Shown here piece by piece: positions 1-44,778 of a stretch of DNA of 44,778 nt. The notes beneath the pieces are model-generated. The model saw only the letters and a list, made by a program, of their open reading frames with translations. It had not been told where the DNA came from and did not search any database. Numbering within the stretch: the stretch's first letter is position 1; each line of letters starts with the position of its first letter. Both the position numbers and the translations under genes were made by a program. The stretch covers positions 1-44,778 of the IMG/VR virus record IMGVR_UViG_3300033143_004168, one strand, 5' to 3'. Source of the DNA: a virus.

Positions 1-114
1 CTTAAAAGCGTAGTACATCATGGTGCTTTAGCGACTTTTGGTACGTTTAAAGTCACTTACGACGAAGAAGATGACGTTAACGTAGTTGAAAGTATTGCTC
101 CAGAGTGTATGCTC
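1..114. repeat. Terminal direct repeat, left copy
   Basis: Identical to 44665-44778. It lies inside the portal coding sequence and keeps its frame across the join, so it most likely marks a circular or circularly permuted genome closed by assembly, not a physical terminal repeat. Confidence 0.95.
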
Positions 115-1608
115 ATAGACCCTAACGCTCCAGATGTAGCCAGTGTTAGATGGATAGGTAATGTAAGATATGACGTTTCTATAGATGAAATTTATGCAAT
201 CTATGGCATAGTACCGGAGCAAAGCAACCGTAGAAATCTTGCAGAGGATTCTTATTATGACGACCTGTATGATGACGAGGACGCTTTAGAAAACAAGCAT
301 AATCTGTACACGCAAGATGGAGACTCCGCAGGGGCGTTGGCTATCACACAAAACTTTGACGTATACGAGTTATGGGTTAGAGATTTTGTTAAGCGGAACT
401 GGAGAGTGTACACATGGGCAGGAGAAACCATGCTTGACGAATCAGAAAACATATATGAGCACAAAAAGCACCCTTACGTCCTGTGGTTTGACGGTGAGGA
501 CTACGGGGCAGATAATTGTTACTATCGTGGTATTGGTGGTGTCGAAGAAATTGAGCCATTGCAGGATAGAGCAGATTCATTGGACATGAAGATTATGACG
601 CATATTTCGCTTGTTACAAATAGGCAGAAGTATGTATCGCATAATACCGGTATTAACCCAAACACTGATAATAGTACAATAGGCAGAGTGTATTCTGTTA
701 CTGGCGACCCACGTAAGGCGGTTTATTATGACAATCCGCCTGCACTTGGTCAAGACGTATATAGATATAGAGACGCTACGGATTTGCAGATACAGGCGAC
801 GTCAGGTATTGTTGACGTTACAATGGGGCGTAGACCTGTAGGCGTCACTGCCGGAAATGCTATGAATACGTTAAAAGAATCCGCAGATGTACGTCTTGAA
901 GAAAAGGCGGAAAGTCTTGCTATGACTATTCAAAAAGTAGGTAATTTAATTCTTCAAAATATGTTGCAGTTTTTTGATGGAGAACGTATGATTAGAGCTA
1001 CTGACGGAGATAAAGATATTAACTTTCTTGTAGTCGCTGACTATCCAGAGGAACTTCAACCGCAACCCCTACCAAAAATTGACCCAACTACTGGTATGCC
1101 TATGATAGACGAAAACGGAGAAGAAGTTATTGACGAGGAGGCAGAACCACAGGTTACAGCAGAGATAGAGGATATGCGTAATCAGTGGAAGGAGCAGAAT
1201 AATGTTAAACTTGTTTTATCTGAGTTGACATATCAATGGGATGTTAAAGCGTCTACTGAATCTGCATTACCTGCTTCAAAGATGGAGCGTGCACGTCAGA
1301 GTACAGAAATGTTTAGATTAGGAGCAATAGATAGGCAGGCTGTTTTAGAGGCTCTTGATTTTCCGGGTAGACATAAGATACTACAGAGATTGAAAGCCGA
1401 AACTACAGGAGCAGACGCAGGAAATGGCGAGCAAGAAGAACAGATGGTACAGGAGTTTATGAACGTTACTGCACAAGTGTTACAGCAAATAGGTATTCCG
1501 GCTGAACAATTACAACCTATATTAGAAGCTATAATGCAGTCATTACAGCAGGGAGAGCAGAGTCAGGGCGGTGAGCGTCCGGGGCAATACAACAAAATAA
1601 ATCAATAG
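1..1608 (+). CDS. Portal protein, C-terminal part (gene continues from 44308)
   Basis: The reading frame is open from base 1 (Leu-Lys-Ser-Val-Val) to the TAG at 1606-1608, giving 535 residues. Joined through the terminal repeat to 44308-44664 it makes a portal of about 654 residues, a usual size for podovirus portals. The portal is the dodecameric ring at the capsid vertex through which DNA is packaged and ejected. The call rests on position (right after the large terminase and before scaffold and capsid) and on portal-like text: a mid-protein region RADSLDMKIMTHISL followed by a long helical region rich in Q and E. The C-terminus is Gln-rich. Recognition is by context and general resemblance, not by a single diagnostic motif. 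Confidence 0.88.
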   Translation, partial: LKSVVHHGALATFGTFKVTYDEEDDVNVVESIAPECMLIDPNAPDVASVRWIGNVRYDVSIDEIYAIYGIVPEQSNRRNLAEDSYYDDLYDDEDALENKHNLYTQDGDSAGALAITQNFDVYELWVRDFVKRNWRVYTWAGETMLDESENIYEHKKHPYVLWFDGEDYGADNCYYRGIGGVEEIEPLQDRADSLDMKIMTHISLVTNRQKYVSHNTGINPNTDNSTIGRVYSVTGDPRKAVYYDNPPALGQDVYRYRDATDLQIQATSGIVDVTMGRRPVGVTAGNAMNTLKESADVRLEEKAESLAMTIQKVGNLILQNMLQFFDGERMIRATDGDKDINFLVVADYPEELQPQPLPKIDPTTGMPMIDENGEEVIDEEAEPQVTAEIEDMRNQWKEQNNVKLVLSELTYQWDVKASTESALPASKMERARQSTEMFRLGAIDRQAVLEALDFPGRHKILQRLKAETTGADAGNGEQEEQMVQEFMNVTAQVLQQIGIPAEQLQPILEAIMQSLQQGEQSQGGERPGQYNKINQ

Positions 1609-4104: not shown

Positions 4105-4497
4105 ATGGCAAAATATAGGTCGCTATTAAAGCAGGGTGCAACGTTTAAATTCCAAGGGTACGGGGAGTATTACGTACCGGCGAATCAGATTATAGATACT
4201 GCGGAGATACCTTTAAAGGTACTTGTCGCTATTCAACGTCGTACTTCCGTTAAAGTGTTTGAGCCCGTTGATACAGGTGAATCAAACATAGTTGAAAAGA
4301 AAGAGGATTTAACGCCTCCTCCAACGTTAAAGGATATAGACACTGACAAGGAAGTAGAGGAGACGCTAGAAGATAAAACAATTGACGATATACGTCTTAT
4401 GTGTGATGAACAAGGCGTTAAATATTCAAGGAGCAATAATAAAGCACAGCTTATCGCAAAGCTGCAAGAGGTAGAGGACGATGGCGAACACGAATAG
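4105..4497 (+). CDS. Head protein with C-terminal SAP/HeH-like domain
   Basis: A 130-residue protein with ribosome site AAAGGGAG. The N-terminal 50 residues look like a small globular strand-rich domain, then comes a long charged linker (residues 55-95, E/D/T/P rich), then a SAP/HeH-like helix-extended-helix at residues about 95-125 (TIDDIRLMCDEQGVKYSRS followed by NNKAQLIAKL). Such small domains bind DNA or nucleoprotein and are common in proteins encoded next to phage capsid genes. Its exact role is unknown; head completion or DNA contact inside the head are possibilities. It overlaps the next gene by 17 bases. Confidence 0.6.
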   Translation: MAKYRSLLKQGATFKFQGYGEYYVPANQIIDTAEIPLKVLVAIQRRTSVKVFEPVDTGESNIVEKKEDLTPPPTLKDIDTDKEVEETLEDKTIDDIRLMCDEQGVKYSRSNNKAQLIAKLQEVEDDGEHE

Positions 4498-5119
4498 AAC
4501 GTTTTTAGAACTGCAAGAAGCTATTGAAGAAGATATGAAACTAAACCCGGGGCTTATTTCTGGCACAGAGCGTCAGGCTTTTTTAAATGGCGCTTTAGAT
4601 GATATAGGTTCATTAGGACTTCTTGAAAAAACGAACACTATTACTACTGTTGACGGAGAAGTGCCTTTGCCGGACGACTTTGTTTCTGTGGTTGAGGTAC
4701 GTTGGGTTAACAATGGGTTAAAACTTAGTCCATCAGATACTCCTTATGTTACGCCATCTACAACGTCGATTAATCCTGTATATTACGTACTTCAAGCTAA
4801 CGTTATTGAACTTATCCCTGAACCGTCAAGCGATAATGACGTTAAATTAACATATCGTTATAGGCCAGTAAAGATGATAGAAGATGATGACCAGCCGGAT
4901 ATACCCAATGGTTGGGATAGGCTTCTTTTAGATTATGCCATAGGGCATTGTCATAGAAAAAATGGCGAAGTAGCTTTATATAGGGAATACATGCAAAGTT
5001 ATGAGTATAATAAAGAAAAACTTGTTGTAGAGCTTTTAAGGCGTATTAATAGTCGTGTTAATCAAGCAGATTATGAGAATAGCGTAAATGTACCGACTAC
5101 GCCATATGATTATCTATAA
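4481..5119 (+). CDS. Tail adaptor (head-to-tail connector, podovirus type)
   Basis: A 212-residue protein that starts inside the previous gene with ribosome site AAGAGGTAGAGG. The start LELQEAIEEDMKLNP and the stretch DGEVPLPDDFVSVVEVRW, then YRYRPVKMIEDDDQPDIPNG and WDRLLLDYAIGHCHRKNGE, are the usual course of adaptor proteins in podoviruses (T7 gp11 and P22 gp4-like). The conserved pattern is a helix, a beta-hairpin, then helices packing on the portal. It would bind the portal and receive the nozzle. Position directly before the nozzle N-part supports this. Confidence 0.75.
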   Translation: MANTNRTFLELQEAIEEDMKLNPGLISGTERQAFLNGALDDIGSLGLLEKTNTITTVDGEVPLPDDFVSVVEVRWVNNGLKLSPSDTPYVTPSTTSINPVYYVLQANVIELIPEPSSDNDVKLTYRYRPVKMIEDDDQPDIPNGWDRLLLDYAIGHCHRKNGEVALYREYMQSYEYNKEKLVVELLRRINSRVNQADYENSVNVPTTPYDYL

Positions 5120-5131
5120 GGAGGTAGCGAC

Positions 5132-5803
5132 GTGATATATGCAAACCCTACACCCCCTATAGCAGAAGAAGAAGTGTTTAAACTGCGTGATTTGTCTGGA
5201 GGGCAAAGAACGGCTATAAGTAGTACACTTCTTAAAGACGAACCATTAGAGTACCAAAAGGCAGAAAACGTGTCTTTTTCTTTTCGTGGTGCGTTAAAAT
5301 TACGTGAGACGCTTAAAGACAGATACTCTAGTGACATAAGCACAGAGGGTATTTTAGGGTTTGGGAGTCTTTACAAAACAGATGGAACGAGCCGCTTGGT
5401 TATCGCTGTAGAGGATAAACTTTATTATGATTCTCCCCATTATGAAGTTGGCTATTATACACAGGCACAGTGGGAAACGGGTACGCTCCTGTATTTGTCT
5501 GCAAGCGATACACCGGGCTGGCTTGTTATAGATACTACGGGTGCTCCTGCAAGCTTGTTAGAAGAATATAATGACGCAACGTCGTTTGATACAGGCACGC
5601 ACTATTATACTCAAGTTAACGCCAGTGGGTATCTTGAGGCAGCTATACCTAACCAAATAAATGAAACTAAAACTAATACCATAGATTTTGTAGGAACGTA
5701 TAATGACGACATTGCTGTGGAAGATGGTAGTATTAAGCTATTAGGAGACGTAACATTTGACGCCTTTTCGTCTATGACGTTCGACGAATTAATAGCTTTA
5801 TAG
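5132..5803 (+). CDS. Tail nozzle/propeller protein, N-terminal part (split gene)
   Basis: A 223-residue protein starting with GTG 5132, chosen because AAGGAGG lies 7 bases upstream. The opening text (DLSGGQRTAISSTLLKDEP, then YQKAENVSFSFRGALKLRE and GFGSLYKTDGTSRLVIAVED) matches the first blade of large phage propeller nozzle proteins, which are normally one chain of 700-1000 residues. The blades that should follow are encoded 3.7 kb downstream at 9506-11557. This piece ends in the linker MTFDELIAL, and the downstream piece begins with the related ATFDDLIAR. The two proteins probably assemble together at the tail tip. The gene is intact, with its own start and stop. Confidence 0.7.
   Translation: MIYANPTPPIAEEEVFKLRDLSGGQRTAISSTLLKDEPLEYQKAENVSFSFRGALKLRETLKDRYSSDISTEGILGFGSLYKTDGTSRLVIAVEDKLYYDSPHYEVGYYTQAQWETGTLLYLSASDTPGWLVIDTTGAPASLLEEYNDATSFDTGTHYYTQVNASGYLEAAIPNQINETKTNTIDFVGTYNDDIAVEDGSIKLLGDVTFDAFSSMTFDELIAL
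5777..5796 (+). repeat. Short direct repeat flanking the receptor cassette, left copy
   Basis: Twenty bases, 18 of them identical to 9515-9534 (mismatches at positions 6 and 12). Both encode the linker TFD[ED]LIA, at the end of the nozzle N-part and the start of the nozzle C-part. Confidence 0.8.
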
Positions 5804-5814
5804 GAGGTATGTTT

Positions 5815-7587
5815 ATGCAATTAACACTAAATTATAGTTTTAAAAAGCCGGAAACGTCGGATAATATAGCCGACGTAATTAATACGTACATTCCAGAGAC
5901 ATTTGATGAAATAGACTCTATGTTCAACGACTATTTAACTAATGTATTAAATCCTCAGTATTCTGATTTACAGACCGAAAACTCAACTATATTTTCCGTA
6001 CCAGCCGGCACGGTTAAAGGTCAACTTAACGCAACTCTTAAAGGTAGAACAGTAACTAATCTGCTGGATGATGATGTTGCAGGGGGTGAAAGTACAAGTG
6101 GATGGAGTACAAGCAACGTAAGCGTTGCAACAGATAATAGTAATGAGTTTGAGGGTACAAATTGTATAAAAGTAACATTATCAGCAGAGCAAACAAGCGG
6201 CGTTGCTTACTATGATATTCTGCCTTATCTTGGCACAAAATACTATCTTATATCTGCATATGTTAAGAATGGGAATTTATCTACAGGATGTTATTTAAGG
6301 GTAACATGTTCAGGGGATGCAGGAAATATAGATGCTTCAAACCATGACGGTACTACATGGTTAAGACAAGGTGTAGTTATACAACCAAGTGATTTTGCTA
6401 ATGCAAGTAGTGTGTATATAAGATTAAAAGTAGATGGTGCAGAAAACCAATATGGCTTTATAGATGCAATAATGGTTAATGAAATATCCTCAACAGAATA
6501 CGCACTTGGAGCAGATGCATTGCTTGACCGTTATAACTGGCACAAAGGCACTAAATCTACATTACCCGTATTAATTCAAAGTGTGGGTATAAACTTATTT
6601 AATGGTGAAATTATAAATGGCAAATATATAGATGCAACAACAGGTAATTTAATGACTGAACCTGACCAAAGTTATTCGCCAAATTATATAAAGGTTAAAC
6701 CCAATACAATTTATACTTTTAGCAACACAGCATTAAGATATGCCAGAACAATTTTTTATGATTCTAACAAAAATTTTATTAATGGAGAAACGTCTGGAGA
6801 TGGCATAACAAGTTTTACCTTCACCACGCCATCTAATTGTTATTATGTTAGGTTGTGTAATGGTGGGAACAATTACAGCATTATACAAGATAAATGGCAA
6901 ATAGAAGAAGGCACAGTCGCAACCGAATACGTACCATATTACGACAGTAAAGCATACATCAACTGGACAGGTAGAAGTTTGCCGAACGGTGTTAAAGATG
7001 AACTTAACGTATTAGACGGTACGCTGACAAAGAATGTTAGTCCTGAATATACGCTACAAGCAAGTGATTTGGATTCATTGTCAACATGGAGAACTAATGT
7101 AGATGTTGTATTTACAAAACCGAACTTTTTGGGAAATTCAGCATTGACTAATGATGGGAAAGCTATAAGAATTGACGGTTGGGATACTATAGATTACAAT
7201 AACGGTAATTTTGATGATGCTGCAAATATTGGGAAGGCAGTTACTACAGAAACTAATCAAGATATAGGATTTATTGTAGAAAAAGGCACTTATGCAAGTT
7301 TAGCAGAAGCACAGCAAGATATTTCTAGTGGTGGTTTAGCTGGAATAACGTTAAATTATCAATTAGCGGAGCCTGAAACATATGAAACTAACGTAACTCC
7401 CATTATTGGCTTTGAAAATGGTACTATAATAATTGAAACAGACGGAACGGTACCAACTTTTGAATATAAGAGCTGTGTGAACGAGGCAGCACAGAGGGAA
7501 AGCGGGGTTGACCTCTCAAATAGGAACGCAAAAATAATTAATTACAACTATAACGAGCTACTAACATACGCATTGTTAGGGCTATAG
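5815..7587 (+). CDS. Tail fibre/appendage protein with carbohydrate-binding-like domains
   Basis: A 590-residue protein. ATG 5815 lies 7 bases after AGGAGG; an ATG at 5809 is too close to the ribosome site. The N-terminal 60 residues are helical and acidic and probably attach to the tail. Two jelly-roll-like domains follow: residues about 80-220 (GWSTSNVSVATDNSNEFEG and the later KYYLISAYVKNG), and about 250-390 (INLFNGEIINGKYIDATTG and VKPNTIYTFSN, then QIEEGTVATEYVPY). Such domains occur in tail and baseplate appendages of Firmicute phages and are thought to bind glycans. The C-terminal 150 residues hold more strands and then NYNELLTYALLGL. It probably binds the host surface. The exact fold is inferred from text pattern. 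Confidence 0.7.
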   Translation: MQLTLNYSFKKPETSDNIADVINTYIPETFDEIDSMFNDYLTNVLNPQYSDLQTENSTIFSVPAGTVKGQLNATLKGRTVTNLLDDDVAGGESTSGWSTSNVSVATDNSNEFEGTNCIKVTLSAEQTSGVAYYDILPYLGTKYYLISAYVKNGNLSTGCYLRVTCSGDAGNIDASNHDGTTWLRQGVVIQPSDFANASSVYIRLKVDGAENQYGFIDAIMVNEISSTEYALGADALLDRYNWHKGTKSTLPVLIQSVGINLFNGEIINGKYIDATTGNLMTEPDQSYSPNYIKVKPNTIYTFSNTALRYARTIFYDSNKNFINGETSGDGITSFTFTTPSNCYYVRLCNGGNNYSIIQDKWQIEEGTVATEYVPYYDSKAYINWTGRSLPNGVKDELNVLDGTLTKNVSPEYTLQASDLDSLSTWRTNVDVVFTKPNFLGNSALTNDGKAIRIDGWDTIDYNNGNFDDAANIGKAVTTETNQDIGFIVEKGTYASLAEAQQDISSGGLAGITLNYQLAEPETYETNVTPIIGFENGTIIIETDGTVPTFEYKSCVNEAAQRESGVDLSNRNAKIINYNYNELLTYALLGL

Positions 7588-7599
7588 GAGGGCGATAAT

Positions 7600-7899
7600 A
7601 TGACGCCAAAAATGTTATTCGGCACAGCAGGGGATACAAGCGAGGCAACGGAATACACAAGTCCGTCAAGCGGTAACGGAACGATAATTACAAGCATAAT
7701 GCTGTGCAATAAGAACGCTTCTGCTCAATGGGCTACTGTCAAGCTGAATGATATAACAATATTATATCAGCATGATATTGCCGCTAATGACACACTGGAA
7801 CTCATACAGGGCAAAGCAATATTGGACGCAGGCGACACTATCAAATGTCAGGTAGAATCGACAGACATTGAAATTTATGCCAGCGGAATAGAATTGTAG
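7600..7899 (+). CDS. Small tail-region beta-sandwich protein
   Basis: A 99-residue protein with ribosome site AGGAGGG, 12 bases after the fibre gene. The text (NGTIITSIMLCNKNASAQWA then DTLELIQGKAILDAGDTIKC) resembles short beta-sandwich proteins found beside tail fibre genes, which have the pattern of a hydrophobic strand, a variable loop, and a closing GDxI strand. It is probably a small virion or receptor-binding accessory protein. No specific family or catalytic residues are seen. Confidence 0.5.
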   Translation: MTPKMLFGTAGDTSEATEYTSPSSGNGTIITSIMLCNKNASAQWATVKLNDITILYQHDIAANDTLELIQGKAILDAGDTIKCQVESTDIEIYASGIEL

Positions 7900-7907
7900 G
7901 TGATAAT

Positions 7908-8351
7908 ATGCGAATAGGATATGGGAAGATATCAAAACGGAACGTTGACGGTGTGAAGCTTGACGGTGACGCTGTGGCTTCTGAGGCTGTTGTGGGTAAA
8001 ACTTTCTTTTCAAACGACGCATTATCAAAGCTTACAGGCACAGGCACTAACGCAAAAAGAGTTGCAACAGGCACTATATCTTCTTTTTCAATTGCAGGCA
8101 CAACAGGTGAAACTAAAGTAGTATCTGGCATAGGGTTTACGCCGAATGTAATTTTTGTGTACACGACAGACGGAGCTTTTGCAAGATACGATTCTGCATC
8201 AATGAATACAGCAGAAGACTGGGCAAAGTCGCCTGACGTGAAGTTTACAAATATTTCAGCTGTTGGCTCAGGCACGTTCACGGTGCACTACTACAATTAT
8301 AACAGTTCAAGCAGGACAATTCCGGACACAAATTGGATAGCTTTAGAATAG
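7908..8351 (+). CDS. Probable receptor-binding tail protein
   Basis: A 147-residue protein. The first 45 residues (KRNVDGVKLDGDAVASEAVV then GKTFFSNDALSKLTGTGTN) carry the short 'V..GKTFFS....LTGT' element that recurs in phage tail fibres as a trimeric shaft or attachment piece. The rest (residues 50-147) is rich in Thr, Ser, Gly, Val and Phe, with strands such as GFTPNVIFVYTTDGAFARYD, and ends NWIALE. This end resembles head domains of receptor-binding proteins. It sits in the receptor cassette between the two nozzle pieces. Which glycan or protein it binds cannot be told. Confidence 0.55.
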   Translation: MRIGYGKISKRNVDGVKLDGDAVASEAVVGKTFFSNDALSKLTGTGTNAKRVATGTISSFSIAGTTGETKVVSGIGFTPNVIFVYTTDGAFARYDSASMNTAEDWAKSPDVKFTNISAVGSGTFTVHYYNYNSSSRTIPDTNWIALE

Positions 8352-8372
8352 TAGAAATAGGAGTGATAGAGC

Positions 8373-8666
8373 ATGAAAAAAGAAACAGAAAAAGTAACAA
8401 TGGAAAAAGGGAAACTTTATAATATCATAGGCGTTAAACCAGAAGAAATACAGATTACAGTTAACGCTCCATCAGTTGATGACGTTGTAGAGCTTGCCAG
8501 AGAAATACAAGCTATAGTTAAACATAGCACAGATACCATTTATACAAAGAGCATGTTGCTTAGAGCATTGAATACAAGACTTTCCGTTAATTTAGATTTT
8601 CCAAAGGCAGATATAAAGGAGGTAATAAATGAGAAGAAAGTTAGGAGCGATACCGTCTCCCTATGA
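8373..8666 (+). CDS. Small helical protein of unknown function
   Basis: A 97-residue protein with ribosome site AGGAGTGAT. It is highly charged, with a predicted strand (EEIQITVNAPS) followed by two helices (VDDVVELAREIQAIVKH, then SMLLRALNTRL). No family is recognised. The next gene starts 38 bases inside this one in another frame, so the two are probably translationally coupled. Its place in the receptor cassette suggests a structural or assembly role, which is inference only. Confidence 0.5.
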   Translation: MKKETEKVTMEKGKLYNIIGVKPEEIQITVNAPSVDDVVELAREIQAIVKHSTDTIYTKSMLLRALNTRLSVNLDFPKADIKEVINEKKVRSDTVSL

Positions 8667-9504
8667 TAGCAGAGATTACACAGTCGCACAGGTAACGTCA
8701 GTTAAAACGTCGTTTCCAAAAGCGTATATAAGACCATACCCGGGCAAGGTCAAAAATCAAGGCAGCATTGGCTCATGTGTAGCTCATAGTCTTGCATACA
8801 CAAGAGAGATGACCGAGTATGAGCAGTATGGAACGTTTAGAGAGTTTAGCACAGGTTTTATATATGGCAACAGAATAGGAACTATGGGTGAAGTTTTCGG
8901 CATGGAAGGAATGGTGCCAAGAGACGCTCTAAAGAATTTACAAGAGTATGGTGACGTTCTTTACGACGACTTTCCTTATAATGATAAATACCCTGTGGTT
9001 AAGACATTAATCGAAAAGGACAGAAAAGGCTATTACGCAAAAGCACAGCCTTATAAGGTGTCAACGTATTATAGATTATATACAGTCGAGGACATTAAAA
9101 CGGCTTTAATGGACTTAGGGTATGTTACCGTTATGTTCCCTATATGTCCGTCCTTCTATAAAAGTGTAAACCACGTTATACCGATACCGGATATTGCTAA
9201 TGAGACGCTTAAAGGCTATCACGAAATGACGTTTATTGGTTGGCGTGATGACAACACTTATATTACGCTTAATTCATGGGGCGAAGATTGGGAAGACGGG
9301 GGTTATTGCTACATACCGTTTAACTTTCCTTTCAAAGAAGCTTGGGGTATAACAGATACTATTATACCACATTGGTCTGAAAAGTATTATGATTATCTTA
9401 ATGAAAACGGCGTTTTAATACATGAAAAACGCTTTAATGACAATGTAACACGTGGCGAACTATTCGCTATAATGGCACGTATTAAAGGTTTCAAGGAGGG
9501 CTAA
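8629..9504 (+). CDS. Papain-like (C1A) cysteine peptidase with C-terminal SLH segment
   Basis: A 291-residue protein. The peptidase has all expected residues: Q44 of the oxyanion hole and nucleophile C50 in NQGSIGSC, H198 in GYHEMTFIGW, and N215 in TLNSWG. Residues about 253-289 (YLNENGVLIHEKRFNDNVTR and then GELFAIMARIKGF) match one S-layer homology motif, which binds pyruvylated wall polymers or sits in S-layers. Only one SLH unit is present, whereas surface-anchored proteins usually have three. No signal peptide is visible, so it probably reaches the cell surface as part of the particle. It may cut S-layer or surface proteins during entry. The gene overlaps the previous one and ends 2 bases before the nozzle C-part. 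Confidence 0.78.
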   Translation: MRRKLGAIPSPYDSRDYTVAQVTSVKTSFPKAYIRPYPGKVKNQGSIGSCVAHSLAYTREMTEYEQYGTFREFSTGFIYGNRIGTMGEVFGMEGMVPRDALKNLQEYGDVLYDDFPYNDKYPVVKTLIEKDRKGYYAKAQPYKVSTYYRLYTVEDIKTALMDLGYVTVMFPICPSFYKSVNHVIPIPDIANETLKGYHEMTFIGWRDDNTYITLNSWGEDWEDGGYCYIPFNFPFKEAWGITDTIIPHWSEKYYDYLNENGVLIHEKRFNDNVTRGELFAIMARIKGFKEG

Positions 9505-9505
9505 C

Positions 9506-11557
9506 ATGCCAGCAACGTTTGACGATTTAATAGCACGTATAGGTACGGGGATATATATAGAGCTCATAGACATAGAGTTTCCGCATAACGTTATTTCGAC
9601 GTCTATATCGTGGACGGAAACAAAACCGGCTGGTGCTACCATAACGCTTGAAACTAATATATCCTTAGACGGAGGAAATACATGGCTTGGATGGCAGACG
9701 TGTACAAATGGAGGAGTGATACCAGATATAACAAAGCTTGTAACAGACTTGTCTAACGCTCAAATGCAGATAAGAGTTACAATGTCAACCACAGGCTGGT
9801 ATCTTCCTTCTGTGGACTCCATTTCGTTTACTATTACAGCAGGATATAAAGATGAATCTTACTGGCTTTCTCCTTCTATTAACTTGATGGGGATAACATA
9901 TGATAATTCCAGTGTTTCATGGGTTGAAAACCTTGCGGCAGGTACAAGCATTAAAGTGTATGAACGTTGCTCTTATGATGAAGAAAACTGGTCGGCATGG
10001 ACTGAAATATCAAGCGGTGATACTATTAATACAGATTTTTGGTTTAAACAATATAAAGTCTCTCTTTTTAGTGACGCTGTTACTAGAGAGAATACACCGG
10101 AATTACAGAGTTTATCTGTATCGGCTGATACGTTTAGTTATGATGGTATTTGGACATCTCCTACTATAGATTTAAGTTTTGCAGAGGATGTTTCTACTGC
10201 GAAAATTAGCGTTGACTATAGTTCCGGAGATGCCGGTACAGGTAGTCTTATATTACTATCACAGGAGAGTAGTGATGGCGTTACGTGGAATACCGCTCAA
10301 TCAGTATTAGGCGACGGAACGATAGTTGGAACAGATAACTATATTCGTATATATGCTATTTTGAGAGACGGTGCAGAGCTTGACGGATTAACTGTATACG
10401 TAGACGGTGACGTCGCTGTGACGTTACTTAAAGACTCTTTGACTATGCAGACAGATTATGATTTCACGATATTAAGAGATAAACTTATTATCGTTAACGG
10501 AAAGGACTCCCCCTTACAATGGAATGGTACAGACGCAACGACAAGCCTATTAGGCGGAAGTCCTCCTGTTATGACTATGGTTGAAACGCACCATAACCGG
10601 GTATGGGGAATTGAAGCTGCGAACACATCACGCCTACGTTTTAGCGACGCTTTAGACCCTGAGACGTGGGATGCACTTAATTTCTTTGATTTTAACCCGG
10701 AAGATGGTGATGTCGTAACAGCGTTAATACGCTACGGACATTATTTAATTGTATCAAAACAACGCTCTATGGCTATATTAACCGGTAATTCAGACACCAC
10801 TTATGGCATAACATGGCTTGATACCGCTTTTGGAGCTATGGGGCAAAGAGCTATCTACAAAGTTGATAACTTTTTGGTTTACGTCGCATATGACGGTATA
10901 CGCACTACGGACTTGGTAGACCCTAAACTCTTGTCAAAGGATTTAGAACCAGATTGGGAGGGTATTAATCATAGACGTTTATCTGCTGCGGCTGTAACAT
11001 ATTGGAAGAATAAGATTTACGTAGCATTACCCAAAATGGGTAGTCTTTACAACAACGTCGTATGGTGTTACAATGTAGTTAGTAAGTCATGGGCGATATA
11101 TGACGAATGGTGTGTATCACATTGGCTTGGGTTTAAACAGTATGGGTCAGAAGTGTTGCTTGCCGCAGATAGTCAGACAGGGCAAGTATACGAAGTGATG
11201 TATGACCCGTTTGACGGCGACGAATCCATAGAATATGACGTTATTACGAAGGAGTTTGATTTTGATTCGCCGGAACGTTATAAAGTGTTTAAAACGGTAT
11301 TTGTTGAGCTTGAAGGGGTGGAGGAAGAATCGACCTTTGAAATGGACATGTATGTAGACGACACCCTTAAAGGTACATATACTGCAACAATACCGGCTGG
11401 AACAGGAACAAAGTACGTAAAAAGAGTATTACCACCAGTATATGACGCTGTACTTGGAAGAACTTTCACACTAGGCTTTAAGGGCAAGTGCACGATACAA
11501 GGTATTAGCATTGTGTATGTCACGAAAGGCTTGGTTGCAACAGAGGAGGATTCCTAA
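9506..11557 (+). CDS. Tail nozzle/propeller protein, C-terminal part (split gene)
   Basis: A 683-residue protein with ribosome site AAGGAGGG. Residues about 1-310 contain several strand-rich repeats (DGGNTWLGWQTCTNGG, YDEENWSAWTEISSGD, SSDGVTWNTAQS) of the kind that form add-on beta domains. Residues about 310-610 carry the propeller core seen in podovirus nozzle proteins: LRDKLIIVNGKDSPLQWNG, then GGSPPVMTMVETHHNRVWGI, RLRFSDALDPETWDALNFFD, NPEDGDVVTALIRYGHYLIV and SKQRSMAILTG. The blade that normally precedes them is the separate gene 5132-5803. It probably forms the tail tip that contacts the cell and gates DNA exit. Its last base is the first base of the next gene. Confidence 0.78.
   Translation: MPATFDDLIARIGTGIYIELIDIEFPHNVISTSISWTETKPAGATITLETNISLDGGNTWLGWQTCTNGGVIPDITKLVTDLSNAQMQIRVTMSTTGWYLPSVDSISFTITAGYKDESYWLSPSINLMGITYDNSSVSWVENLAAGTSIKVYERCSYDEENWSAWTEISSGDTINTDFWFKQYKVSLFSDAVTRENTPELQSLSVSADTFSYDGIWTSPTIDLSFAEDVSTAKISVDYSSGDAGTGSLILLSQESSDGVTWNTAQSVLGDGTIVGTDNYIRIYAILRDGAELDGLTVYVDGDVAVTLLKDSLTMQTDYDFTILRDKLIIVNGKDSPLQWNGTDATTSLLGGSPPVMTMVETHHNRVWGIEAANTSRLRFSDALDPETWDALNFFDFNPEDGDVVTALIRYGHYLIVSKQRSMAILTGNSDTTYGITWLDTAFGAMGQRAIYKVDNFLVYVAYDGIRTTDLVDPKLLSKDLEPDWEGINHRRLSAAAVTYWKNKIYVALPKMGSLYNNVVWCYNVVSKSWAIYDEWCVSHWLGFKQYGSEVLLAADSQTGQVYEVMYDPFDGDESIEYDVITKEFDFDSPERYKVFKTVFVELEGVEEESTFEMDMYVDDTLKGTYTATIPAGTGTKYVKRVLPPVYDAVLGRTFTLGFKGKCTIQGISIVYVTKGLVATEEDS
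9515..9534 (+). repeat. Short direct repeat flanking the receptor cassette, right copy
   Basis: Pairs with 5777-5796 (18 of 20 bases identical). It encodes the start of the nozzle C-part, ATFDDLIAR. Confidence 0.8.
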
Positions 11558-26363: not shown

Positions 26364-26658
26364 AGGCGTCTCCTCCTTCTTCTTTAATAATTGTTAAACA
26401 TATACTATACCGTTCTGTTAGTGTTTTTAAAACACCGTTTATAATTTGTAAAGCATATTCTTTAGCTTTTTTGAAGTCATTCGTGTCTAACGGTACTCCT
26501 TTTAAATTTAGTTCATGTGACGTAAGAAGCCATTTTTCACCATAATAGATATGCTTATGTACAATCACTTCTAAGCCATTTATGCTAGCACATAGGACTC
26601 TTGGCGTTCTTGTCTTGTTACTTTTACTGTAAGACGTTATGTCTTCCCATTTAATCAT
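26350..26658 (-). CDS. Small protein next to ParM-like gene, unknown
   Basis: A 102-residue protein. Its ATG overlaps the TGA of the ParM-like gene (ATGA), and its own end overlaps the next gene by 14 bases, so the three are one coupled unit. The sequence has strands (TPRVLCASINGLEVIVHKHI) and a helix (DFKKAKEYALQIINGVLKTL). No family is recognised. It may serve the segregation system or DNA handling. Confidence 0.5.
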   Translation of the reverse strand: MIKWEDITSYSKSNKTRTPRVLCASINGLEVIVHKHIYYGEKWLLTSHELNLKGVPLDTNDFKKAKEYALQIINGVLKTLTERYSICLTIIKEEGGDAYAES

Positions 26659-27578
26659 TCTTCCACTCCTTCCACAAGTTTAGTTAACGACTCGGCTGTA
26701 ATAGTTTGAGCATTAACAGGTATTATAGGCTCTTTGAAATAACGTCGTATAGAAGGCTCAAAACCTAAACTTCCACCTCCAATAAACACAAAGTGTTCTA
26801 TGGTATCAAAACTCGAAAAGCGTGTTTTAACCTTTGTGTACATAAGGTAAAAAGCTGAATCTAAAATGTCAATAACACTCTCTGCCACATTTTTAACACC
26901 TTCGTCTACTTTAAGCGTATAATCGTCAAAAAGTATACGGGGCACGTCTTCTGCTGGTATACACACACCACATAGTTTCTGTATAAGATTAGACAACTTC
27001 TGTAATGTAGATAAAATACCATAAGGTTCCGTATAGCCTTCGATAAATTCATCATTATTAAAACGAAGTACGTGCATTGTACGACTCCCTATATCAAACA
27101 TCAGCGTAGGTTTTCCATCTAAACCTAAACTCTCGTATGCCGCAAAACCTTCTGGTGTAACAACTATGTTGTTAACCGTAAGTTTTATTTTACGTCCGTT
27201 AATTGTAACGACTATACCTTTAGAGCAATCTAACGTCTTTTTATATCGCTGTACGGTTTCGTCATTTTCCCACTGTGTAAACGGTAGCACTGTAAGCACT
27301 GTATCATACGTGACAGATGATACACTCTCAGGTAAATCTTTAACTAAAGCGTACAGATAACAAAGACGTAAATTCTGATTACGACTCTTATCAATATTAA
27401 CGTCATAAAAACTATCCTGTGGATGTAAACCCATACGATACTTTTTTCCATCTACTTCTAACGTATTGATAGCTAAGTTGACAAATTTATCTGATATACC
27501 TGATGGAAAAATATCTCCTCTTGACGTTTTAATACACAACGTTCCTAAATCTACACCAAAATTTTGAATCAATAACAT
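26655..27578 (-). CDS. ParM/Alp-like actin-family ATPase
   Basis: A 307-residue protein; ATG 27578 follows AAAAGGAG by 8 bases, and a GTG three codons earlier was not accepted. Actin-fold motifs are phosphate-1 FGVDLGTLCIKT (residues 7-18), phosphate-2 MFDIGSRTMHVL near residue 168, and the adenosine motif FIGGGSLGFEP near residue 275. ParM and Alp proteins form filaments that push plasmids or phage DNA apart. It is under its own near-consensus promoter. With no integrase visible it may partition an extrachromosomal prophage, or position DNA during lytic growth. Those two uses cannot be told apart here. Confidence 0.78.
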   Translation of the reverse strand: MLLIQNFGVDLGTLCIKTSRGDIFPSGISDKFVNLAINTLEVDGKKYRMGLHPQDSFYDVNIDKSRNQNLRLCYLYALVKDLPESVSSVTYDTVLTVLPFTQWENDETVQRYKKTLDCSKGIVVTINGRKIKLTVNNIVVTPEGFAAYESLGLDGKPTLMFDIGSRTMHVLRFNNDEFIEGYTEPYGILSTLQKLSNLIQKLCGVCIPAEDVPRILFDDYTLKVDEGVKNVAESVIDILDSAFYLMYTKVKTRFSSFDTIEHFVFIGGGSLGFEPSIRRYFKEPIIPVNAQTITAESLTKLVEGVEE

Positions 27579-27671
27579 AATATACACTCCTTTTGATTAA
27601 TTTATACTCATATTTTGCACACAAACATTTCCAGCGTTTACCAGCAATATACAAATTATAAGCATAAAGTG

Positions 27672-32617: not shown

Positions 32618-34642
32618 TTAGTTTATTACTTTTTTAAGGTACGTCGCTATATGACTAACGAACGTCTCCATAGTACGTATATAAACAAAATCATTCCCAA
32701 ACGTAGCTTGTTCCACAATAAGATTATTAGGACGTCCAACATATATACCAAGTACAGGCATGTGCCGTCGCATTAAACTTATGGTACGGTACAGGTCCTC
32801 CTGAACGTTGATAGTCTTCCTTGTTATCTGTGACGTCCATGTTTCATGTACAGTATACAGTCTTATGCTCTTTTCTCCCGATCCATCATCTAAGCTGTAC
32901 AGGCTACATGCAGGGGCACCGTCAGATAAAATTAACATAATGTGCTTTTCATCAAATGCACGCAATTTAATGTCCTCAAAAATAGCTTTAAATGCTAGAC
33001 CGTCCATATTACTACCGGATGACATATATTTCAACACGCCATCCACACATTTATCATCATAATCCTTTAACACAGTTAACCCTGTAATATTTGCAGATGA
33101 CGAAAACATTGTTATTCGACAAGGTAAATTAGCTTGTACACACGCTACTGCTAATACAAGCAGTTGTGCCCTGATTTGATAGTATCTCCCCCCGTTACTA
33201 CCGGAAGCGTCTACTACGACATCAATTCTATATCCTCCTTCACTTTTATATTCTACTTTTTTGAATATTTGATTATCGTTAACGCTTATACGCTGTATAC
33301 GGCGTATATCTAGTAAGCCCTGTCTTGACGGCGTCGTATCATATTCTCTAGCAGCACGTAAAAGCTCTATTAAGTGCTTTGCCAGTAATTTACCCATACT
33401 AACGCAATCGTTATAAGATAAGTATTTGTCTTTATTTACATACTGTACGCCTAAGAAGTCGTCTTTAGATACCGACGGTTCAATTTTTTGATTTTTTAAG
33501 CGATAAAATACGCTACGTGTACCTGTAAACATATCTTTACATACTGCTTTATTTATACGTGTTTGTTCCTCTTGTGACAAGTAAGCCACAATCTCATTGC
33601 TTTGATGATACACCCAATCATCTTCAAGCCGGTCTAATTGGTATTTTGTGTTGTCTTTACAATTTTTTTTATGTGATTCAGAAGAACACGCCTTTTGTTC
33701 AGCCTGTCGATATTCCTTGCTATCTTTATTCACTAAATTCTTTATAGAACCACTTTCACTTCGTATCATTTCTTGAATTAAACTGTCAACGTCCTCACTT
33801 TCACCTTCTCTTTCATCTTCCTTTTCCCCTTCACCTTCGCTCTCTTTTTCATCATTATCGTTTACTTCTACTCCTTCGTTGGCTTCTTCATCTTCGTTAG
33901 CGTCCTCGCCTCCCTTGCCTTCGCCTTTTTCTTCGTTAATTTCTTCGTTAGTTTCTTCGTTTTCATTTTTATTTTGTATAGTATGCGTTGTACTTTGCGT
34001 TGGTTTATTTTTCTTAATTAGTTTTTTCTGAAAGTGTAAATCATATATACGTACTGACTCCTTTATAACGTCCTGTGTTGACGTGACTTTTTTGAGTGCA
34101 CAATTAATCAAATTCGCAATAGCGTGAGCTTTTGTCCAATTTATTGCTTTATCCCACATACTTAAACGCTTATCTTTATGCGTACCGTACAAAATAAAGC
34201 AAACCCCTTTAAGCATATTAAACGTAGCATTTGATGATGGTGTTAAAATACCTGCTTCTGATACAGCGTCAAGTGCTTTTTTCTGCATAATTTTATAACC
34301 AGGACGTTCTTTTGCGACAATAGCGTCTATTCTACAATCTTCTATAATGTTTATTATATTAAACAACGTCTTTATATCGTAACCTTTTTTGTGCAGTTTC
34401 TTTAGCTCTTTTTGTGTCGTGTTTATATCAGTATGGCGTATATGCCCCCCTTCGTGCATACAGGAGTGAAGTGACATAGCCTCCATTTGGTCAAACGTCA
34501 TGCCTAATTTTTCCATGATGGGTTCGGAAAGAACTTTAACGTTCTTTCCGTCTGTAGAAAAGTTACTACCTACCTGTACACCTATACCGTAATCCTTGGT
34601 ATAGGTATGAATTAATGACGCATTACGTTCAAATAAACTCAC
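32618..34642 (-). CDS. VWA-domain protein with metallopeptidase-like HEGGH motif (CobT/DUF2201-like)
   Basis: A 674-residue protein starting at GTG 34642, 5 bases after AAGGAGG. Residues about 50-110 hold HEGGHIRH (63-70) and NIIEDCRID (98-106), the pattern of gluzincin-like domains of VWA proteins. Residues about 225-290 are a very acidic linker. Residues about 470-665 are a VWA domain with MIDAS DASGS (478-482) and LILSDGAP. Such proteins partner MoxR/CobS-type AAA+ ATPases, as CobT does in cobaltochelatase. The AAA+ partner is encoded two genes upstream. Nothing else suggests cobalamin synthesis, so a chaperone or remodelling role is more likely. Confidence 0.78.
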   Translation of the reverse strand: MSLFERNASLIHTYTKDYGIGVQVGSNFSTDGKNVKVLSEPIMEKLGMTFDQMEAMSLHSCMHEGGHIRHTDINTTQKELKKLHKKGYDIKTLFNIINIIEDCRIDAIVAKERPGYKIMQKKALDAVSEAGILTPSSNATFNMLKGVCFILYGTHKDKRLSMWDKAINWTKAHAIANLINCALKKVTSTQDVIKESVRIYDLHFQKKLIKKNKPTQSTTHTIQNKNENEETNEEINEEKGEGKGGEDANEDEEANEGVEVNDNDEKESEGEGEKEDEREGESEDVDSLIQEMIRSESGSIKNLVNKDSKEYRQAEQKACSSESHKKNCKDNTKYQLDRLEDDWVYHQSNEIVAYLSQEEQTRINKAVCKDMFTGTRSVFYRLKNQKIEPSVSKDDFLGVQYVNKDKYLSYNDCVSMGKLLAKHLIELLRAAREYDTTPSRQGLLDIRRIQRISVNDNQIFKKVEYKSEGGYRIDVVVDASGSNGGRYYQIRAQLLVLAVACVQANLPCRITMFSSSANITGLTVLKDYDDKCVDGVLKYMSSGSNMDGLAFKAIFEDIKLRAFDEKHIMLILSDGAPACSLYSLDDGSGEKSIRLYTVHETWTSQITRKTINVQEDLYRTISLMRRHMPVLGIYVGRPNNLIVEQATFGNDFVYIRTMETFVSHIATYLKKVIN

Positions 34643-35229: not shown

Positions 35230-36492
35230 TTAAAGTGATATCAAATCAGTTATTTTTTTCGTTTCTTTGGGCACAATTGTTTTAATTGTGTCCTCTATTA
35301 TTGTGCGTTCGTATTGCTCGAACGCTTTATTAATTATACAACACTGTAAAGCTTCAAACGGTGGTAAATCGTACGTACATAAATCCACAGCAGACTTGAT
35401 ACCTCTAAAGTCCACGCTTTTAGTGCTGATTTCGCCATGACGTGCCTTCTCTCTTAAATCATCAAACACTGTTGCAAACAGTTTCAACGTGTCTGTACTG
35501 TAAAAAGGGAATGACATATGTAATAAAGCCGTTAAATCGTCTATATTTAGTGGCTCTATGTGAATAATTGCAAAACGTGATGTATATGCTTCACTTAATT
35601 CTCTAGTACCTGTGTAACCGTAATTCATAGTACCGATAAAGCGTGTGCACTCGTGAGCATACACTCTGTCATAGCCAGGGATGTCTATATAACGTCTATC
35701 GTCAAAGAGTGAGTGCAACACTGACGTTGCGTCGGCTTTCGCCATATTTAATTCGTCAATAACGCAGAAACCGCCGTGTTTAGCAGCTTCTATTATGCCA
35801 GCAGGCTTAAAGACGATATTACCATCTCTAAGTGTGTCATTCCCTATTAAGCTACCAGCGTCAGTATAACTATGACATGATATATTCCACACCGGACGCT
35901 GAAAATAAAAAGCCATGTTCTCAGCAAGAACGTTCTTTCCTGTGGCCTTTTCACCTTCTAAAATAACATTTTTACCGGCAAGCAGATTCGTTATTACCTG
36001 TCTTAACACGCTACCTCCTCGGAATAACCTGTTTCCGTTAATTTTAGGTATACGTGCTTTCAATTCTTCGTCTACGATAGGTGCACTATTCCTGTACGCA
36101 ACCATAGCATCTATAGTTTTAACCGGAACACCCTCGTTTAATAAAAAATCACGTGCTGTAATTTTACGTTTACTCATAAACTCCTCCTTTTTCTCCGTTT
36201 TTACGGATGTTTCTGTTTCTGTTTCTGTTTCACTTGACGTCGTACTTGACGTCACTTTAACAGAATGAACGGTACCGTGTATTGATGATGATACCATAGT
36301 GAAATTTTTTGACGAATACGGAGACCATTTCCCTAAATTATTTTTAACTCTAAACTTTCCTTTTCCGTCTAATTTTGCGACGTATTGCTTTCCTAACGTT
36401 AATGTTTCACAAGATGACGTATTACATTGTACTAAGCACTCTTTTTCACTTACATTATACGCACCGTTTACGAATTGTAATACTATACTCAT
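35230..36492 (-). CDS. MoxR/CobS-type AAA+ ATPase
   Basis: A 420-residue protein. Residues 1-80 are a small strand-rich domain (VRNNLGKWSPYS-like text after GKQYVAKLDGKGKFRV), then comes a Thr/Glu linker made of TE repeats, then the AAA+ part from residue 106. Walker A is GEKATGKN (180-187), Walker B is FCVIDELNM (242-250), and SRFAIIHIEPL follows as in MoxR proteins. It pairs with the VWA gene 32618-34642, as CobS with CobT. An internal in-frame ATG (36177) preceded by AAAGGAGGAG could give a 315-residue short form without the N-terminal domain. Confidence 0.82.
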   Translation of the reverse strand: MSIVLQFVNGAYNVSEKECLVQCNTSSCETLTLGKQYVAKLDGKGKFRVKNNLGKWSPYSSKNFTMVSSSIHGTVHSVKVTSSTTSSETETETETSVKTEKKEEFMSKRKITARDFLLNEGVPVKTIDAMVAYRNSAPIVDEELKARIPKINGNRLFRGGSVLRQVITNLLAGKNVILEGEKATGKNVLAENMAFYFQRPVWNISCHSYTDAGSLIGNDTLRDGNIVFKPAGIIEAAKHGGFCVIDELNMAKADATSVLHSLFDDRRYIDIPGYDRVYAHECTRFIGTMNYGYTGTRELSEAYTSRFAIIHIEPLNIDDLTALLHMSFPFYSTDTLKLFATVFDDLREKARHGEISTKSVDFRGIKSAVDLCTYDLPPFEALQCCIINKAFEQYERTIIEDTIKTIVPKETKKITDLISL

Positions 36493-43932: not shown

Positions 43933-44327
43933 TTATATGGGTTTTAATTGCTGTTTTAGCAATTATACAAGCATACCATATGGACAAGTTAAGACAGAAA
44001 ATTGAGAAAATGAACAAGGCATTTACTAGAATATACAACCGTATAGACGATATATGCACAGGGTATAAAACTGAGATATGGGAGGTATTGAAAAAAATTG
44101 ATAGTGTTAATAGTGTTCAGAATAGTTATACACCGGATAATAACGTTAATGCACCACGTACCTTTAGCGACGTTACCCCGGAGCTTCTCATGGCGTATGG
44201 CGTATCCTCCGTAGGAGAGCTGCCAAAGTCTATTCGAGATAGTTTGCCGGAAGATGTCGTAGCAGAAAACAAAAACATGAATGATTTATTAGGGGGTGAC
44301 ATAGAGTATGGCACAGAAAGAATTTAA
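43914..44327 (+). CDS. Membrane/coiled-coil protein between terminase and portal
   Basis: A 137-residue protein. Residues about 4-22 (GTIIIWVLIAVLAIIQAYHM) form a transmembrane segment, followed by a coiled coil (KLRQKIEKMNKAFTRIYNRI) and a soluble C-terminal part (FSDVTPELLMAYGVSSVGEL). It overlaps the large terminase by 19 bases and the portal by 20 bases. No family is recognised. A membrane protein is unusual at this spot in the packaging genes. Confidence 0.65.
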   Translation: MDTGTIIIWVLIAVLAIIQAYHMDKLRQKIEKMNKAFTRIYNRIDDICTGYKTEIWEVLKKIDSVNSVQNSYTPDNNVNAPRTFSDVTPELLMAYGVSSVGELPKSIRDSLPEDVVAENKNMNDLLGGDIEYGTERI

Positions 44328-44778
44328 GGGCACGTTAATAGACCAAATAGAAAAAGATGGTATTAAGACACTTAAAAAGATAACAGACGCAACTAAATCA
44401 GCACTAAATACTAGAAAATCTGTGTGGGAGCGTTATAGAAAGAAGTACAGAAGGGGCTTGCAATATCTGAAACATTTTAATGATAATCGTCCTGTGTACT
44501 TTACAAATGCTATATTCGCAAATGTGGAGCATTACAAATCAAATATAACACGCTTTCTGCCACAGTTAATAGTTTCTCCACGTGGCACGGCAGACCAATA
44601 CGCAAGCGACTTTATGACGAGGGTGTTATCCGATGAGTTAGACCGTATAGAATTTAAGCCTGTGCTTAAAAGCGTAGTACATCATGGTGCTTTAGCGACT
44701 TTTGGTACGTTTAAAGTCACTTACGACGAAGAAGATGACGTTAACGTAGTTGAAAGTATTGCTCCAGAGTGTATGCTC
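44308..44778 (+). CDS. Portal protein, N-terminal part (gene continues at 1)
   Basis: Open frame from ATG 44308 with ribosome site AGGGGGTG to the window end (157 codons). From 44665 it repeats 1-114 and joins in frame to the part ending at 1608. The text (KSVWERYRKKYRRGLQYLKH then ANVEHYKSNITRFLPQLIVS) is typical of portal N-termini, with a helix and then the RFLPxLxVSPR pattern. Confidence 0.88.
   Translation, partial: MAQKEFKGTLIDQIEKDGIKTLKKITDATKSALNTRKSVWERYRKKYRRGLQYLKHFNDNRPVYFTNAIFANVEHYKSNITRFLPQLIVSPRGTADQYASDFMTRVLSDELDRIEFKPVLKSVVHHGALATFGTFKVTYDEEDDVNVVESIAPECML
44665..44778. repeat. Terminal direct repeat, right copy
   Basis: Identical to 1-114; see that entry. Confidence 0.95.

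Follow-up and report, generated by a model that had tools for sequence, protein, structure and literature searches.

We analyzed a 44,778-nt virus record (the whole stretch is called the window here) and find that two of its genes, A and B, together account for a single podovirus nozzle, A matching its N-terminal part and B its C-terminal part; sequence comparison makes this assignment firm. We consider it likely that the two polypeptides together form a hexameric tail nozzle with a fibre dock at the seam. The dock would consist of tandem 8-residue units of the form T-[W/F]-x-x-[L/M/F/Y]; A would carry two of them at its C-terminal tail, and B probably a third at its N-terminal head. The cut would lie in an outward-facing insert that separates the first blade strands from the remaining propeller. 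The product of the fibre gene located between A and B would be a trimer, with each chain clamping one aromatic unit as in phage SU10, and a fibre anchored at the seam could help to keep the nozzle halves joined. This case shows that two genes can encode a channel protein that is usually a single chain.

Two genes for the parts of one nozzle

The window carries a 114-bp exact direct terminal repeat (1-114 and 44665-44778) and its portal gene reads across the ends; thus, the 44.8-kb phage record is circularly closed. Upstream of A, we obtained matches to P22_portal, SU10_MCP (weak) and SU10_adaptor. The podovirus nozzle gene order portal-MCP-adaptor-nozzle is found in the window, where a P22-type portal, an SU10-like capsid protein, an adaptor, A, the fibre, three small genes, a papain-family peptidase and B follow one another (Table 1).

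Table 1. Features of the split nozzle locus and its surroundings (window coordinates)
Feature	Coordinates	Strand	Basis or remarks
Portal gene	44308-44778 joined to 1-1608		Spans contig ends
SU10_adaptor-like gene	4481-5119		
A	5132-5803	+	223 aa, GTG start
A residues 1-103, N-terminal nozzle part	5132..5440	+	Profile, G003 match and alignment with G001, G003, L029 and L035
A residues 104-207, variable insert domain entered from blade 1	5441..5752	+	Family alignment
Putative dock unit 1, TFDAFSSM	5753..5776	+	Aligns with TWEPYAAI (G001), TWSDYSSR (L035), IWSDFQEI (SU10 gp17 Trp839)
Putative dock unit 2, TFDELIAL, C-terminal end of A (stop 5801-5803)	5777..5800	+	Aligns with TWDAMILL (G001), DWSEM (L035), TWDDPSIKEL (SU10 Trp847)
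Shine-Dalgarno AGGAGG overlapping the stop codon of A	5802..5807	+	Sequence; same in G001
Tail fibre gene	5815..7587	+	Begins MQLTLNYSFKKPETSDN...; phrog tail fibre E 3e-11; ORF called from 5809
Genes found at this place in the window alone	7600..9504	+	99-aa, 147-aa and 97-aa proteins and the peptidase
Papain-family cysteine peptidase	8629-9504	+	Peptidase_C1 E 3e-12; phrog_16701 E 1e-25
Shine-Dalgarno AAGGAGG of B	9493..9499	+	Sequence
B	9506-11557	+	683 aa, ATG start
Candidate dock unit 3, TFDDLIAR, B residues 4-11	9515..9538	+	6/7 identity to unit 2
B residues 12-304, three lectin/Ig-like repeats	9539..10417	+	phrog_20852 E 1e-17; strand-rich in model
B residues 305-683, remaining beta-propeller and C-terminal platform	10418..11554	+	Nozzle profile E 1e-36

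The open reading frames of A and B exist as described in the original prediction. Searching with a profile from five intact nozzles, we find that A covers positions 10-94 (E 5e-4) and B, with the far stronger score listed in Table 1, positions 141-474; the two parts are complementary with zero overlap. A single chain of 2,018 aa in the relative G003 holds both (A part, 37% identity, E 3e-21; B part, E 5e-146), A and B being 37-49% identical to it, and about 1,200 additional aa, partly lectin-like domains, are inserted where the window is cut. Broader homologues are single chains as well (L036, 504 aa; L043, 479 aa; SV21; Pascal), in agreement with the earlier claim that the two halves normally make one chain. 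We also looked for a B homologue with a first blade of its own. Only intact chains had one, and these also contain A, so the split is supported. In the window, G001 and L029, the nozzle departs from the one polypeptide that is the criterion of the T7 gp12, P22 gp10 and SU10 gp17 type.

By analogy with SU10, residues 1-103 of A may form the N-terminal platform strands and the first strands of blade 1. The insert domain that follows differs strongly in length and sequence among relatives (A has 374 aa in G001, 228 aa in L035 and 449 aa in L029). The lectin/Ig-like repeats of B also precede the propeller in G001, G003 and L029, and residues 305-683 are 47-52% identical to G001, G003, L027 and L029. 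AlphaFold single-chain models from 5-row alignments were poor (pLDDT 38 for A and 51 for B). In a Foldseek search with the low-confidence B model, the best solved structures were the SU10 and cyanophage A4 nozzles (E 3e-6), matches which serve as support only, given that low confidence. PDB sequence searches with the A and B profiles found no nozzle. It is very improbable that A and B are separate complete proteins instead of halves of one fold. Each is translated from its own start and the sequence similarity of A to known nozzles outside its family is low, but the G003 chain contains both, and the two match complementary parts of the nozzle profile.

The original prediction placed fibre, receptor-type and papain-SLH genes between the halves. 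The fibre and the papain-family peptidase are confirmed; Pfam finds no SLH domain in the peptidase gene, and its C-terminal ~25 residues resemble half of one by eye only. The genes at 7600-9504, peptidase included, have no match among the related loci compared. The peptidase sits in the tail operon between the nozzle halves and could be a virion enzyme acting on the cell surface. Elsewhere, this 45-kb short-tailed phage encodes an actin-like protein (26655-27587, minus strand; ALP_N E 1e-6, MreB-like C-terminal domain). It also encodes a MoxR-type AAA ATPase (AAA_5, E 3e-22), with a CobT/VWA-like gene close by (32618-34642 and 35230-36492, both minus strand); G001 and G003 each have a homologue of the ATPase, and G003 also has one of the VWA-like gene.

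Recurrence of the split and contents of the cut

Relatives were reached only via TerL, a nozzle alignment and MCP searches, and the firm assignment of A and B to one nozzle comes from these relatives. Direct searches with single nozzle proteins against IMG/VR and GTDB contigs gave no matches, nor did a three-row alignment against GTDB or A against named phages. In G001, the order is A, one fibre gene and B, and B is 43% identical over residues 1-680. The G001 fibre runs over contig ends that have no exact overlap, so its exact length is uncertain. In L029/L033, B starts 18 bp after A with zero genes between. In L035, A is followed by a fibre gene in which the contig ends, before any B half, and the A half is also present in L034. 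The split and its recurrence are direct readings of the sequences.

The split in G001 and L029, together with A and fibre in L035, shows that it is neither a pseudogene nor an assembly error, and the split is old and looks functional. We found no point in favour of a degraded gene, frameshift, assembly error or intron/intein, and the A half in L034 and L035, the split in L029/L033 and the separate B ribosome sites of the window and G001 all speak against it. No Rfam intron was found at the gathering threshold. We regard this explanation as the most improbable of those weighed.

Four relatives carry different material at the cut: lectin-like domains within the chain in G003, nothing in L029, a fibre in G001, and a fibre plus four further genes in the window. 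With four different contents, the place is modular in a broad sense. In addition, A of G001 (L024, 495-1619) has a domain with 30% identity to the window's fibre (residues 84-231); domains may therefore move between nozzle half and fibre.

We considered whether G003 represents the ancestral fused state. In a tree built from terminase, portal, capsid and adaptor, the fused G003 groups with the split G001 (support 99), inside the split phages, and the propeller tree gives the same grouping (support 97). This weakens the proposal, and re-fusion or gene exchange in G003 is as likely as an ancestral state.

The near-repeat and the putative fibre dock

The shared linker TFD[ED]LIA and the DNA repeat at 5777-5796 and 9515-9534 were correctly noticed in the original prediction. 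The two copies, ACGTTCGACGAATTAATAGC and ACGTTTGACGATTTAATAGC, are 18/20 identical and in frame in both genes, encoding TFDELIA and TFDDLIA. This is the sole match of at least 18/20 between A and the 14 kb that follow, and 54 random pairs of stretches of equal sizes yielded none at that level. However, given the two peptides and the phage codon usage, DNA identity of at least 18/20 is expected in 9% of draws (P=0.09), so the near-repeat is a feature at the peptide level.

It had been proposed that the repeat marks a modular site where receptor cassettes are exchanged by recombination. The varied contents at the cut agree with the modular part of this idea. The recombination part fares poorly, since the repeat is explained by the peptides at the above P value and is absent in G001, although the split and the fibre are common to both. 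Conserved flanking DNA repeats, the mark of a recombination-site cassette, were not found. The linker unit moreover matches the Trp units of the SU10 fibre dock, which counts further against recombination, and we judge a recombination site very improbable. A target-site duplication was also considered and dropped, because the split with an MP[AL]T head is already present in G001; for the same reason, the split probably predates the extra genes of the window. The best reading of the shared linker is a fibre dock.

In the cryo-EM structure of SU10, the loop of the nozzle that docks the short fibres presents Trp839, Trp847 and Trp857 in a quasi-threefold star that binds a trimeric fibre, with Tyr23-Ile24-Tyr25 of each fibre chain forming a clamp on the segment ahead of each Trp (PMC9509320). 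The loop has the sequence IWSDFQEI-TWDDPSIKEL-VWRKD, read as IWSDFQEITWDDPSIKELVWRKD, the same motif as the tails of A. In the window, G001 and L035, A ends in two such units (Table 1) with 0-3 residues before the stop; in the window the ring residue is Phe instead of Trp, a point against the dock reading. By shuffling, the two-unit tail has P 7e-4 in the window and 3e-4 to 7e-4 for each of the three genomes. All three of these A genes directly precede a fibre gene. In L029 and G003, where A is not succeeded by a fibre gene, both the tail motif and an NYxLxKP-type fibre head are absent from the stretches compared. The motif and its coupling to a fibre with an NYxxxKP head are read in the genomes themselves, and a dock on the tail of A is likely.

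We built a fibre-head profile from 30 fibre genes and searched it against 919 ORFs of related loci. The top three were the fibres of L035 (E 4e-7), the window (E 8e-5) and G001 (E 0.13), and we count the low G001 score against the dock reading. The 48-aa fibre head of L035 had no match when searched against phages. The true start of the window's fibre is likely at 5815 and not at 5809, since 5815 lies 7 nt after the Shine-Dalgarno sequence and holds the first Met of the head profile.

The third unit is less clear. B starts MPA-TFDDLIAR, and at the same place B of G001 starts MPL-TLNELNTG with Leu for the ring residue, making unit 3 weak outside the window. Thus, of three aromatic units ~8 residues apart, A carries two in three genomes, and the one on B is aromatic in the window alone. 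These facts would suit a dock on A alone, the TFDDLIA of B being a coincidence or an unrelated leader. Against this, three units are usual (SU10, phiOH2, phiHugo, TPELB_ph1, MRSA107 and L176), and the B head, in the window nearly identical to unit 2, directly follows the initiator there as well as in G001 (MP[AL]T..[DE]L). We hold a dock confined to A to be unlikely, though it carries some weight. The simplest reading places the third unit on B, and fibre binding would then span the seam of the split nozzle. Sharing of the units, two on A and one on B, is plausible but unproven. From the motifs, we infer physical fibre binding, a third unit on B and stapling of A to B. Tentatively, and with somewhat less than even confidence, we propose that the dock is divided over two proteins and that a trimeric fibre, its gene lying between the halves, clamps two units of one half and one of the other, stapling the two-chain nozzle.

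Array-head pairing and comparison with known systems

A scan of IMG/VR for three TW units spaced by 8 residues gave at least 90 matches in 80 loci, 57 of them in the longest frame among the matches listed. Among the same listed matches, 30/57 in-frame arrays sit 3-13 residues from the end of ~175-300-aa proteins, and the three carriers of C-terminal arrays that were tested belong to the Mu gp48 family. The next gene has an NYxLxKP...N.D.ID head in 28/30 arrays with a readable next gene (among the matches listed, under a slightly looser frame rule than the 30/57 count) versus 8/635 other ORFs, a contrast that is indicative only, since the head expression was written after the heads were seen. 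To avoid selection by the motif, we took a set of 13 baseplate proteins of the gp48 family, identified in named phages through homology; the query carried an array itself, but a match needs the gp48 part alone. Array and NYxLxKP head occur together in 8/8 and neither occurs in the other 5/5 (Fisher P 8e-4; two of the eight array-positive cases, in unannotated records, were judged by eye). The ring residue in the eight arrays is W, F or even H. Three units are present in most of these eight proteins, which fits a trimeric fibre.

An internal three-unit array also occurs in nozzle-like proteins that are single chains (L097, L101, L067, L111 and L077). In L166 (Fusobacterium phage phiHugo) and L176, the C-terminus of a gp48-type protein has His for Trp (THKLLKQF-THGELRRY-THKEL), and an NYxLxKP-type head still follows. 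A gp48-type protein of L104 bears two consecutive C-terminal three-unit TW arrays (6956-7113) and could hold two fibres. A simple sequence rule results. Tandem T-W/F/H units spaced ~8 residues apart, with an NYxLxKP start in the next gene, seem to foretell which fibre goes with which tail protein, both in short-tailed phages and in those with gp48-type baseplates. Our literature search did not find the split nozzle or the general pairing of tail array and fibre head described, and SU10 was the sole structure found.

Compared with known systems, the Mu gp48 and XkdU (PF10076) baseplate proteins likewise have a C-terminal array followed by an NYxLxKP-head fibre gene, but the carrier is different (baseplates of other tailed phages) and the three units are on one tail. 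The muzzle gp44 of phiCrAss001 resembles the window's nozzle in its nozzle-type propeller with large cell-facing insertions; however, it is a single chain and its insertions are at other blades (PMC10172136). The T7 (gp12) and P22 (gp10) nozzles share the platform and propeller and sit as a hexamer on an adaptor. Unlike the present case, both are single chains, and in T7 a jelly-roll domain serves as fibre dock (PMC6702177).

SU10 gp17 also resembles the window's nozzle, with a nozzle propeller fold match, tandem aromatic units at 8-10-residue spacing, an adjacent fibre gene and units near-identical in their letters to the tail of L035. No close overall sequence similarity is seen between the SU10 and window nozzles. 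The SU10 fibre is trimeric; the window's fibre has the conserved head and the adjacent gene, and by analogy it may be a trimer that binds in the same way. SU10 gp17 is a single polypeptide of 1,005 aa whose three dock Trp share a loop on the C-terminal side of blade 1, whereas in the window the chain is cut and the units appear split 2+1 near the N-terminal side. This difference counts against the dock reading, and the two dock positions are likened here by analogy.
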